NCBI GenBank assembly: GCA_009772935.1
Contig: WOUR01000031.1
Location: 1-64,000 of the forward strand
Direction of reading: 5' to 3'
DNA from: Rhodospirillaceae bacterium
GTDB taxonomy: Bacteria > Pseudomonadota > Alphaproteobacteria > Reyranellales > Reyranellaceae
Length of the DNA: 64,000 nucleotides
This document shows, in pieces, positions 28,901 to 32,896 of this stretch; position 1 is the first letter of the stretch; every line of letters begins with the position of its first letter. A model generated the notes under the pieces. The model did not search any database. It worked only from the letters and a program-made list of their open reading frames with translations, and was not told the DNA's origin. Position numbers and translations under genes: made by a program.

Positions 28901-29359
28901 TCAGGCGCGGTGATAGGGATGGCCGGCGAGAAGTTGCTGGGCGCGGTAGATCTGCTCGGCCAGCATCCCGCGGGCCAGCAGGTGGGGCCAGGTCATGGCG
29001 CCAAATGACAGGACCAGAGTGGCTCTTTTCAGCATCGCCTCGGTGTGGCCGTCGGCGCCGCCGATCAGGAAGGCCACGTCCGAGACCGACGTGTCGCGCC
29101 AGCCCCCGAGGCGGGCCGCGAAGCCTTCGCTGTCCAGCACCCTGCCGCGGCGGTCCAGCATCACCAGCGTCGCCCCGGCCGGCGCCGCGTCGAGCAGCAG
29201 CTCGCCTTCGCGCTGCATCAGCTGGGGTGCGGGCAGCTTCCGCTTCTCCTCGAGCTCGCGCAGCACGAGCGGCCAGCGGATGCGGCCGGCATAGTGGTCG
29301 TAAAGGTCCCGCTCCGGCCCGCGCGACGCACGGCCGATGGCGGCGATCGTGATCTTCAA
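28901..29359 (-). CDS. rlmH: 23S rRNA (pseudouridine1915-N3)-methyltransferase RlmH
   Basis: A SPOUT-family methyltransferase of 152 aa that modifies pseudouridine 1915 in helix 69 of 23S rRNA. The SAM-binding trefoil knot is seen in VMLDRRG, FLIGGADGHTEA and the C-terminal LLARGMLAEQIYRAQQLLAG. Length and the YHRA C-terminus match the family. It follows the rsfS reading frame by 22 bp, the usual order in proteobacteria. Confidence 0.96.
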   Translation of the reverse strand: MKITIAAIGRASRGPERDLYDHYAGRIRWPLVLRELEEKRKLPAPQLMQREGELLLDAAPAGATLVMLDRRGRVLDSEGFAARLGGWRDTSVSDVAFLIGGADGHTEAMLKRATLVLSFGAMTWPHLLARGMLAEQIYRAQQLLAGHPYHRA

Positions 29360-29381: not shown

Positions 29382-29840
29382 TCACGACGCGCGCTTGCGG
29401 CGGGCTGCGGGCCTGGCGGCCGCCTTCTTGACGACGGCTTTCTTGACGGCGGCCTTCTTGACCGGCTTGGCGGCGGCCTCGTCCTCGAGCGCCCACATCT
29501 TCTCGAGCGCGTAGAAGGAGCGCGCCTCGGGGCGGAAGACGTGGACGATCACGTCGCCGGCGTCGACCAGCACCCAGTCGCCGGTCTGCTTGCCTTCGAC
29601 GGGAATATAGCCGCGGCCGGACTGCTTGAGCTTGTCGGCGAGATTCTCGGCGATGGCCACCACCTGGCGGGTCGAGCGGCCGGAGGCGATCACCATGTAA
29701 TCGGCGAAGGCCGACTTGCCCTTGAGGTCGATGACGACGATGTCCTCGGCCTTGTTGTCGTCCAGCGACTGGCGCACCAGCTCGAGGAGCGCGTCGGAGT
29801 CTTTGCTTCGATCGGGAAGCGTGCGGGTCTGGTCGGGGAT
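29382..29840 (-). CDS. rsfS: Ribosomal silencing factor RsfS, possible separate product with atypical start
   Basis: The RsfS domain (SLDDNKAEDIVVIDLKGKSA, then ADYMVIASGRSTRQV and GDVIVHVFRPEARSFY) binds ribosomal protein uL14 and blocks subunit joining in starved cells. A good ribosome site, AAAGGAAAG, is followed after three bases by ATC at 29840, exactly where an ATG would give a normal 152-aa protein. No ATG, GTG or TTG occurs before a GTG at 29777, which would remove the first helix. Either ATC serves as a weak start, the GTG is used, or RsfS is made only as a fusion with NadD. Confidence 0.7.
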   Translation of the reverse strand: MPDQTRTLPDRSKDSDALLELVRQSLDDNKAEDIVVIDLKGKSAFADYMVIASGRSTRQVVAIAENLADKLKQSGRGYIPVEGKQTGDWVLVDAGDVIVHVFRPEARSFYALEKMWALEDEAAAKPVKKAAVKKAVVKKAAARPAARRKRAS

Positions 29841-30470
29841 GGTCTTTCCTTTCGATCTGGTCCGTCGGGGCCGCTCGGCGCGGATGGCCGTCGCGGAATG
29901 GCTGTCCAACCTGCTCGGGATAAAGCACCAGGCCGGCGGCTCGCAAGTGGCCAGCCGGCGGGCCTCGGCGGCCTGCAGCTGGAAACGCTCGAAGGTGCGC
30001 GGTGCCGGTGCGGCCAGCGCGGTGTATCCCCACCCGGGGCGCGCGAAGGCGGCGATGGGCACGGTGGCGAACAGATCGCGCCAACCCGCCCAGTCGACGA
30101 GCTGGGGCAGGATGTCGGCGCCCATCAGCCAGACGAACCTGGCATGAGGATAGACGCGTTTCAGCGCCCGCACCGTGTCGAGCGTATAGCGCGTGCCGAG
30201 CAGGAGTTCGGGCGCCTCGACGCGGATGCGCGGATGGCGGGCGACCTGGCGGGCGCGCGCCACGCGCGTGGGCAGCGGCTCCATGCCGTCGCCGCTCTTC
30301 AGCGGGTTCTGCGGCGAGACCAGCCACCACACTTCGTCGAGGCCGAGGCGCTTCAGCGCCTCCAGGCTGATATGCCGGTGGCCGGCATGCGCGGGATTGA
30401 ACGAGCCGCCCAGCAGGCCGATGCGCCGCGCCGTGGCGCGCGGCACGCCCGGCATCGGATGCAGGCTCAT
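29382..30470 (-). CDS. nadD: NadD and RsfS encoded in one continuous reading frame
   Basis: The first ~205 residues are nicotinate-nucleotide adenylyltransferase (NAD synthesis): the HxGH nucleotidyl-transferase motif GGSFNPAHAGH is at 21-31, and the closing SHSATAIR motif is at about 192-199. No stop codon follows. The frame runs through a short basic linker (RPRRTRSKGKT) directly into a complete ribosomal silencing factor, giving 362 aa ending in a Lys/Ala-rich tail. The two genes are normally separate neighbours. This may be a true fusion, or rsfS may still start internally (see the separate entry). A hidden sequence error at the junction cannot be excluded. Confidence 0.85.
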   Translation of the reverse strand: MSLHPMPGVPRATARRIGLLGGSFNPAHAGHRHISLEALKRLGLDEVWWLVSPQNPLKSGDGMEPLPTRVARARQVARHPRIRVEAPELLLGTRYTLDTVRALKRVYPHARFVWLMGADILPQLVDWAGWRDLFATVPIAAFARPGWGYTALAAPAPRTFERFQLQAAEARRLATCEPPAWCFIPSRLDSHSATAIRAERPRRTRSKGKTIPDQTRTLPDRSKDSDALLELVRQSLDDNKAEDIVVIDLKGKSAFADYMVIASGRSTRQVVAIAENLADKLKQSGRGYIPVEGKQTGDWVLVDAGDVIVHVFRPEARSFYALEKMWALEDEAAAKPVKKAAVKKAVVKKAAARPAARRKRAS

Positions 30471-30480
30471 CAGATGGCGC

Positions 30481-31764
30481 TCACGGGCGGAGCGTGCCCT
30501 TGCCGCGCACGATGTTCTTGTAGGTCGTCAGTTCGACCAGCCCGACCGGACCGCGCGCATGCATGCGGTTGGTCGAGATGCCGATCTCGGCGCCCAGGCC
30601 GAACTCGCCGCCGTCGGCGAACTGCGTGCTGGCATTGTGCATCACGATGGCGCTGTCGACCTCGCCCAGGAAGCGCTGCGCCGTCGCCTCGTTGTCTGTG
30701 ACGATCGACTCGGTGTGCTGGCTGCCGTAGCGCGCGATGTGATCGATGGCACCAGCGACGCCGTCGACCGTGGCGACCGAGATGATCGGTTCGAGATATT
30801 CCGTGCGCCAGTCCTTCTCTGTGGCGGCAATCACATGGGGGTCGCGCTTGCGGACCTCGGCATCGCCGCGCACCTCGCAGCCCAGCTCGTGCAGCCTGTC
30901 GAGCACCGGCTTCAGGTGCGTGTCGAGCGCGGCGCGGTCGATCAGCAGCGTCTCGGCGGCGCCGCAGACGCTGACCCGGCGCATCTTGGCGTTGGCCACG
31001 AGATCGCGCGCCATCGCGACGTCGGCGTCGCGGTCGACATATACGTGGCAGATGCCGTCATAGTGGCGCAGCACGGGCACGCGGCTCTCCTGCGTCACGC
31101 GATCGATCAGCGAGCGTCCGCCGCGCGGCACGATCAGGTCGAGCCAGTCCATGGCGCGCAGCATTTCGCCCACCGCCGCGCGGTCGGTCGTCGGCACCAG
31201 CGCCACGCAATCCTCGGGCAGGCCGGCGCCCGCCAGCGCGCGGCGCAGCAGCTCGACGATGGTGCGGGAAGAATGGAAACTGTCGGAGCCGCCGCGCAGC
31301 ACCACGACGTTGCCCGACTTGATGCACAGCGCGCCGGCATCGGCCGTCACGTTGGGCCGCGCCTCGTAGATCACACCGATGATGCCGATGGGCACGCGCA
31401 CGCGGCTGAGCGCCAGCCCGTTGGGCCGCCGCCATTCCTCGATGACGGCGCCGACCGGATCGGGCAGGGCGGCGATGTCGTCGAGGCCCCGGGCCATCGC
31501 CTCGATGCGGGCCTCGTTCAGCAGCAGACGGTCCTGCAGCGCAGCCGTCATGCCGGCGGACTTGGCCGCTTCGATGTCGCGCGCGTTGGCGGCCAGGATC
31601 GAACTCTTTTCGGCGCGAATGAGACGTGCGGCCTCCAGCAGTGCCGCGTTCTTGGCCGTGGTCGGGGCGGTGCGCAGCGCGGCGGCGGCGGCCTTGGCGC
31701 GGCGGCCGAGCTCGGCGACGATGGCCACGACGTCTTCGGCGGCGGGCTTGGTCTGGACGTTCAT
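30481..31764 (-). CDS. proA: Glutamate-5-semialdehyde dehydrogenase
   Basis: The second enzyme of proline synthesis, 427 aa, reducing glutamyl-5-phosphate with NADPH. It has the ALDH fold with IGIIGVIYEARPNVT, the catalytic Cys in RRVSVCGAAETLLID and the C-terminal signature FGLGAEIGISTNRMHARGP. It follows proB by 16 bp. The ATG at 31764 gives the expected N-terminus. Confidence 0.97.
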   Translation of the reverse strand: MNVQTKPAAEDVVAIVAELGRRAKAAAAALRTAPTTAKNAALLEAARLIRAEKSSILAANARDIEAAKSAGMTAALQDRLLLNEARIEAMARGLDDIAALPDPVGAVIEEWRRPNGLALSRVRVPIGIIGVIYEARPNVTADAGALCIKSGNVVVLRGGSDSFHSSRTIVELLRRALAGAGLPEDCVALVPTTDRAAVGEMLRAMDWLDLIVPRGGRSLIDRVTQESRVPVLRHYDGICHVYVDRDADVAMARDLVANAKMRRVSVCGAAETLLIDRAALDTHLKPVLDRLHELGCEVRGDAEVRKRDPHVIAATEKDWRTEYLEPIISVATVDGVAGAIDHIARYGSQHTESIVTDNEATAQRFLGEVDSAIVMHNASTQFADGGEFGLGAEIGISTNRMHARGPVGLVELTTYKNIVRGKGTLRP

Positions 31765-31780
31765 GCGTCGCTCCGTCTGT

Positions 31781-32896
31781 TCACTCGACCACGAGATCGT
31801 CGCGATGGACGATCTCGTCGCGGCCGCGGAACCCCAGCAGCCGTTCGATCTCGACGCTCTTGCGGCCGGCGATGCGGCGCGCGTCCTCGGCGGCATAGGC
31901 GACCAGGCCGCGCGCCAGCACGCGGCCGCCGCGATCCTTCACGTCGACCACGTCGCCGCGCCGGAACTCGCCCGCCACCGCGGTCACGCCGGCCGGCAGC
32001 AGGCTCTTGCCGGTCGACAGCGCGCGCACCGCGCCATCGTCGACGACGAGCGTGCCGGCCGTCTTGAGCGAGCCCTTGATCCACTTCTTGCGCGCCGACA
32101 AAGGCGAGCCCTCGGGCAGGAACCAGCTGCAGCGCGCGGTGCCGTCGATCAGTGCGCCCAGCGCGCCGACGCTGCGGCCGTCGGCGATCGCCATGCGACA
32201 GCCCGCGGCCATGGCGATGCGGCCGGCCATCAGCTTGGTCACCATGCCGCCGTTCGACATCTCGGACGCCGCGACGCCGGCCATCGCCTCGATCTCGGGG
32301 GTGATCTCGCGGACCTCTGGGATGAAGGTCGCCGAGGCGTCGCTGCGCGGGTCGCCGGTATAGAGACCATCGATGTCGGACAGCAGGACCAGCGTGTCGG
32401 CCGAGATCATCTCGGCGACGCGGGCGCCCAGGCGATCGTTGTCGCCGAAGCGGATCTCGTCGGTCGCGACCGTGTCGTTCTCGTTGATGACCGGGATGGC
32501 GCCCAGTCCCAGCAGCGTCGCCATGGTCTGGCGCGCGTTGAGGTAGCGGCGACGCTCCTCCGAATCGTTCAGCGTCAGCAGGATCTGCGCCACGGTGATG
32601 CCGTGCCGCGCCAGCGCCTCCTGGTAGGCCTGGGCGAGGCGGATTTGCCCCGTGGCCGCCGCCGCCTGGCTCTCCTCGAGACGCAGCGGGCCAGCGGCGA
32701 GCTTCAGATGCGTGCGGCCGAGGCGAATGGCGCCGGACGAGACCAGTACGACCTCGCAGCCACCTTTGTGCAGGCGGGCGACGTCGTTGGTCAGGGCCTC
32801 GAGCCAGTCGCGCCGGACCTCGCCCTTCGTCTCGTCGACCAGGATCGAGGAGCCGATCTTGACGACCAGCCGCCGCGCGCCGGCGAGCGGAGTCAT
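31781..32896 (-). CDS. proB: Glutamate 5-kinase
   Basis: The first, usually proline-inhibited, step of proline synthesis, 371 aa. The amino-acid kinase domain has [13 protein letters not shown] at the start, VSSGAIRLG, and GTGGMVTKL-like [18 protein letters not shown] around residue 215. A C-terminal PUA domain (about 280-360) is present, as in the long bacterial forms. The start overlaps obgE by 4 bp (ATGA), suggesting coupled translation. Confidence 0.97.

Follow-up and report, generated by a model that had tools for sequence, protein, structure and literature searches.

A joined nadD-rsfS reading frame with a conserved internal ribosome-binding site and a candidate AUC start for free RsfS

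The window analysed here is a 64,000-nucleotide stretch of contig WOUR01000031.1 from a Rhodospirillaceae bacterium, in which the nicotinate-nucleotide adenylyltransferase gene nadD runs into the ribosome-silencing gene rsfS within one open frame, and ATC occupies the position at which an rsfS start codon would be expected. This raises the question of what is made from the locus: a NadD-RsfS fusion protein, a free RsfS begun at a rare start codon, or both.

Organization of the nadD-rsfS frame

The nadD-rsfS frame is on the minus strand between two genes that are context only, a downstream neighbour directly after rsfS (28901..29359, minus strand; TTG start in the open reading frame list) and an upstream neighbour (30481..31896, minus strand); these are presumably rlmH and proA respectively, names that we assign from sequence and gene order rather than from family profiles. 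It is a single frame of 362 codons (30470..29382; 29382..30470 in ascending order) with an ATG start and no internal stops in the window. The order NadD then RsfS in one frame, as read in the initial annotation, is borne out by family profiles, since the 362 aa product scores above the curated cut-offs for both. The NadD part (residues 13–209; 29844..30434, minus strand; also Pfam PF01467) gives 269.8 bits with NCBIfam NF000843 (cut-off 240), and the RsfS/Iojap domain (residues 229–326; 29493..29786, minus strand) gives 124.2 bits with TIGR00090 (cut-off 56.9) and 118.6 bits with PF02410 (cut-off 21.6). The motifs GGSFNPAH and SATAIR can be read directly from the translation of the NadD part, and we take them to have their usual roles, including that of nucleotide-binding motif of NadD. 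According to the available sections of PMC3400551, RsfS binds L14 and impairs subunit joining, with W77, D81 and R95 as contact residues of the E. coli protein; alignment places W299, D303 and R317 of the fused frame at the equivalent positions. The RsfS part also has a basic, Lys/Ala/Arg-rich C-terminal tail of 36 residues (29382–29492, minus strand), which varies in relatives and is absent from E. coli RsfS.

Between the two parts is a linker (residues 188–220; 29811..29909, minus strand) that is likely to be flexible and holds the putative internal start. The AlphaFold2 prediction, made from 14 sequences (mean pLDDT 74, pTM 0.54), has two folded parts separated by this low-confidence stretch (pLDDT below 50), with ATC inside it; residues 319–362 are of low confidence too. 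The junction DNA reads AAAGGA-AAGACC-ATC (AAAGGAAAGACCATC at 29852..29838, minus strand), so that the Shine-Dalgarno motif AAAGGA, which supplies Lys and Gly codons of the fusion (29847..29852, minus strand), is six bases ahead of ATC. This triplet, the last three bases of AAAGGAAAGACCATC (29840..29838; feature 29838..29840, minus strand), encodes Ile211 of the fusion and is the proposed start codon of a free RsfS of 152 aa (29382..29840, minus strand), as judged from conservation and from relatives. Searches of the source genome (98% complete) with the fused protein and with the RsfS family each give a single match, and thus no separate rsfS copy was found in it. The exact pattern AAAGGANNNACCATY occurs once in this genome, at the nadD-rsfS junction.

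The junction across the genus

A total of 65 genomes of the genus of the source genome, apparently Reyranella, were searched; 62 have a match and 60, each a different species in the collection, are readable through the junction, the five unread genomes comprising three without a match and two with contig-end pieces only. All 71 loci examined (the 60 genus genomes and 11 titled records, L048–L058) contain nadD-rsfS as one open reading frame, although the titled records partly duplicate the same organisms, and the junction of one (L057) is identical to that of G405, a genome of another genus. No stop in the nadD-rsfS join was found in any of the 60 readable genus genomes, which agrees with the likely fusion proposed from the window sequence.

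The ribosome site before ATC at 29840, already noted in the initial annotation, is kept throughout the genus. All 60 readable genomes have A(A/G)AGGA followed at Shine-Dalgarno spacing by ATC (54) or ATT (6), with a spacer of 6 nt in 59 and 9 nt in one, and with ACC or GCC immediately before the ATC or ATT. An exact search with AAAGGANNNACCATY finds it at the junction in 44 of the 51 genus genomes searched; of the other seven, four have GCC or AGAGGA and three are without a complete junction. Away from the junction there are 12 matches to AAAGGANNNACCATY in 61 genomes, compared with 9 for a reversed control pattern, and these look like chance occurrences, although a few could still be AUC or AUU starts.

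Conventional starts are scarce in the same region. Aside from the start of the fusion itself, 56 of the 60 genus genomes have no ATG, GTG or TTG between 24 and 3 codons before the RsfS domain. The use of a downstream GTG, offered earlier as an alternative to ATC, is not plausible in view of this scarcity and is rejected, since the GTG of 'CTG GTG CGC' is not conserved and is GCC in, for example, L008, L013 and L014.

Conservation of the ribosome site and of the reading frame

The pattern at the nadD-rsfS junction is beyond chance. Codon use was compared among 60 distinct fused open reading frames, with the rest of the same gene as background. The Gly codon of AAAGGA is GGA in 60/60, whereas outside this site 2.9% of the Gly codons of the gene are GGA. 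The Lys codon is AAA in 59/60 (12.7% of Lys codons elsewhere in the gene); the single change is to Arg (L146), with the codon AGA, yielding AGAGGA. The third positions of the AAA and GGA codons have no changes on the tree, compared with a mean of 7.9 over 177 conserved columns, but 10 of those 177 columns also have no change, such that the AAA-GGA pair is unusual rather than unique.

The linker around AAAGGA is variable in both sequence and length among the genus loci. In 70 loci the NadD motif and ATC are separated by 30, 36, 39, 42, 45, 51 or 54 nt, always a multiple of three, and this spacing has changed at least eight times on the tree. If one third of insertions and deletions keep the frame, eight of eight doing so would occur by chance about once in 6,500 cases, a figure that is an estimate and not a test. 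Silent-site conservation of AAAGGA together with linker lengths in threes suggests that the internal ribosome site and the fusion frame are both under selection. The codon at the proposed start is less informative; AUC and AUU also code for Ile, and the 54:6 ratio of ATC to ATT is near the background usage of these codons (0.897 and 0.082), so codon choice alone is no proof of a start.

The rsfS start in other genera of the family

Ten genomes from genera of the family other than that of the source were compared. G405 is fused and has the same AAAGGAAAGACCATC and ATC; the other nine are unfused, with ATT behind a ribosome site in eight and TTG, as read, in one (G404). An ATG at the site or a stop between the genes, which would have counted against the initial reading, is seen in none of the 60 genus genomes; stops are present in these other genera, but the codon that follows is ATT (8/9) or TTG (1/9) and not ATG.

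Two of the unfused genomes (G407 and G409) have the nadD TGA in the rsfS frame, and ATG, GTG, TTG and CTG are all absent from the 19 codons that separate this stop from the RsfS domain. In four others (G406, G408, G410 and G412) the rsfS frame differs from that of nadD, ATT is behind GGAGATCGCC, and the open rsfS frame of 31 codons is without ATG, GTG or TTG. Six of the eight ATT genomes therefore lack ATG, GTG and TTG throughout the open rsfS frame ahead of the domain, leaving ATT as the only reasonable start there. No canonical start able to serve instead is found in these six or, in the stretch before the domain and leaving aside the start of the fusion, in 56 of the 60 genus genomes. The remaining two have an in-frame GTG (G221) or CTG codons (G411) upstream of ATT. 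The presence of ATT starts in unfused genera makes the rare rsfS start look older than the fusion and independent of it.

Start codons of rsfS across the Alphaproteobacteria

The wider survey included 97 rsfS loci from outside the genus, representing 84 families and drawn from among the best-scoring matches listed (273 of 289 genomes matched), of which 96 passed a profile-coverage filter. A second set of 74 rsfS loci combines loci picked by similarity to the window protein with seven further ones. Ranking of positions without regard to codon is noisy (the best-placed codon is AUA, AUC or AUU in 24, CTG in 10 and ATG in 2 of 97, with the rest scattered or weak), so codon enrichment at well-placed positions and a uniform start call were used. 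The uniform call considers in-frame ATG, GTG, TTG, CTG, ATT, ATC and ATA up to 60 codons upstream and picks the one with the best properly spaced Shine-Dalgarno sequence, scored against what we take to be the anti-Shine-Dalgarno letters; weak cases are called as none. Starts are grouped as canonical (ATG, GTG or TTG), CUG, or AUH (AUA, AUC or AUU).

AUH codons are the largest group for rsfS in both sets. The class set (n = 96, among the matches listed) gives 47 AUH, 21 CUG, 8 canonical and 20 none, and the second set (n = 74) gives 38, 10, 14 and 12 respectively. The positive control infC (n = 30) has 28 AUH and 2 none, whereas the other controls have few AUH calls: proA (n = 61) has 3 AUH, 6 CUG, 37 canonical and 15 none; rlmH (n = 68) has 5, 3, 22 and 38; and nadD (n = 76) has 6, 18, 16 and 36. 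The nadD CUG calls come largely from a repeated AGGTGCG stretch upstream, taken to be the end of ProA, and this spurious count of 18/76 makes the rsfS CUG calls less safe than the AUH calls. In other classes of the phylum (n = 22), rsfS has 3 AUH, 11 canonical and 8 none, and the rsfS gene of E. coli K-12 is annotated with a TTG start.

Among the matches listed in the class set, 31 of the 47 AUH calls are 11–13 codons before the RsfS domain, and 28 of 96 loci have no ATG, GTG or TTG within 60 codons, compared with 15/74 in the second set and with 5/76 for nadD, 4/68 for rlmH and 1/61 for proA. Codon enrichment at good positions places ATA, CTG, ATC and ATT at the top for the class rsfS loci (among the matches listed); in the second set the leading codons are ATA, TTG, CCT and ATC, with ATT in eighth place. 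For the rlmH and proA controls ATG ranks first, and for nadD it is CTG, not ATG.

In several families rsfS seems to be started at CTG behind a strong Shine-Dalgarno sequence (e.g. CAAGGAGGGCAGACTT-CTG), with candidates including L152, L160, L161, L191, L194, L202 and L210. A joined nadD-rsfS frame is also present at further loci of the class, among them L060, L066, L074, L096, L111 and L203; some joined loci have an ATC inside the frame that is preceded by a ribosome site (L106, L112 and L208), and others have an internal ATG (L061, L065 and L185).

ATC had originally been described as a lost or rare start. Its conservation in the genus, and the use of rare starts for rsfS elsewhere in the family and class, indicate a rare start and not a lost one. 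If this use is general in the class, many genome annotations probably give rsfS the wrong start, as start prediction leans on ATG, GTG and TTG.

A model for expression of the fused locus

We consider it probable, from the patterns of sequence conservation, that two products come from the one frame: a NadD-RsfS fusion and a free RsfS that begins at AUC and whose synthesis IF3 probably limits. Ribosomes starting at nadD would read on without interruption to the rsfS stop, so that NadD would be made as NadD-RsfS with a flexible linker, and we infer that this protein is made and stable. Ribosomes loading at the internal AAAGGA would start at AUC (or AUU in some relatives) and make a free RsfS of ~152 residues; conservation points to this start, as do the relatives that have no start but AUU available. 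AUC and AUU are codons rejected by IF3, and free RsfS would accordingly be expected to be scarce, and to become more abundant when there is too little IF3 for the 30S subunits present. IF3 keeps ribosomal subunits apart, as does RsfS, so the rare start would tie the levels of the two factors together. The same rare start in many other Alphaproteobacteria suggests that it came first; the fusion would have arisen later through loss of the nadD stop, in the source genus and one neighbouring genus. Tethering to NadD could make RsfS subject to control by NAD metabolism, or may simply be tolerated.

Some features of the junction would also be expected if the fusion were the sole product, with the internal site dead and KGxTI a conserved linker motif; the frame is open in 60/60 genomes, and the linker Ile and Thr are conserved as amino acids too. 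We regard this as unlikely. The conservation is at silent positions, in codons (AAA and GGA) that are rare in the gene and lie within a variable linker, the one Lys to Arg change uses AGA and so gives AGAGGA, and where the genes are separate in the family rsfS requires a start at this place, which in 8/9 is ATT. Slightly less likely still is the converse, that only the free proteins matter in effect, the fusion being trimmed or unstable and the joined frame a tolerated accident, with RsfS made from AUC and NadD released by cleavage in the linker. The apparently intact internal start and the low-confidence prediction for the linker, which resembles that of disordered stretches, fit such a reading, and in-frame joins at several other alphaproteobacterial loci indicate that loss of the stop may be easily tolerated; yet at least eight length changes before ATC have all kept the frame (the estimate of about 1 in 6,500 given above), and NadD would need an unknown protease.

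Two further explanations can be set against the model. Internal Shine-Dalgarno sequences can pause ribosomes, and AAAGGA, rather than being a start site, might act between the domains to pause elongation or to shift the frame. This is very improbable, as the spacing to ATC or ATT is 6 nt in 59/60 and the same place in unfused relatives is occupied by ATT behind a ribosome site. A frameshift signal is rejected: a stop within 20 codons after AAAGGA occurs in 1/60 genomes in the +1 frame and in 6/60 in the +2 frame, which gives no sign of a short frameshifted product kept across the genus. That faulty sequencing or assembly masks a stop or turns ATG into ATC is scarcely credible; nothing was found in favour of such an error, and it is refuted by the agreement of the junction in 60/60 readable genomes of different species. 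The two-product model, a fusion together with a free RsfS, is the one retained here.

Extended to the Alphaproteobacteria, the model would hold that the rsfS start is rejected by IF3 as a rule, such that a second anti-association factor for the subunits, one on the 50S side, has its level set by IF3, and that the source genus and its neighbour add a NadD-RsfS form, one form of RsfS following NAD synthesis and the other IF3. This extension is more tentative than the model for the locus itself, with in our judgement not quite an even chance of being correct. If true, one feedback would set two proteins that keep the ribosome halves apart, and silencing would be matched to initiation capacity by simple means. 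The fused locus would be a natural case of a rare start seemingly used inside a longer frame.

Comparison with known systems

Internal starts, and rare starts controlled by IF3, are both familiar; among the published open-licence papers listed, none points to a NadD-RsfS fusion or to a rare start for rsfS, within such a fusion or otherwise. A close likeness is to infC, encoding IF3, which has an AUH start (AUU, AUC or AUA) behind a ribosome site and a product that keeps the subunits apart; infC of the source genome (L255) has an ATA start behind AGAGGAGAAGGAAGCC. The rsfS site differs in being inside a longer frame, and its control by IF3 is putative. As RsfS is not IF3, such control would act in trans, unlike the autocontrol of infC. 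In-frame internal starts give long and short products, as with the IF2 forms of infB, and nadD-rsfS similarly has one frame with two starts and, probably, two products; it differs from infB in that its parts are unrelated proteins and its inner start is AUC or AUU.

The available sections of PMC5472188 present IF3 autocontrol through a rare start as a classic case with few characterised parallels, and report that Streptomyces sigR has a GTC start and is repressed by IF3, as shown experimentally. Like rsfS in the present model, sigR is a gene other than infC whose expression is restrained by IF3 and a noncanonical start, and its start is misplaced in annotated genomes; gene, codon and phylum differ, and the sigR case is experimental whereas that of rsfS is inferred. 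Staphylococcus aureus cvfC1 and ccpN have conserved AUU or AUA starts, which were measured (PMC13009471, available sections). They resemble rsfS in combining a conserved weak start with a strong Shine-Dalgarno sequence, but encode a transcription regulator and a small protein and not a ribosome factor, and their starts do not depend on prediction as that of rsfS does. The main text of PMC3400551, on RsfS/RsfA (YbeB) of the E. coli type, contains neither 'nadD' nor 'start codon'. The protein predicted here shares with the one described in the available sections of that source the full domain and the L14-contact residues, and differs in being joined to NadD and in apparently using a rare start.
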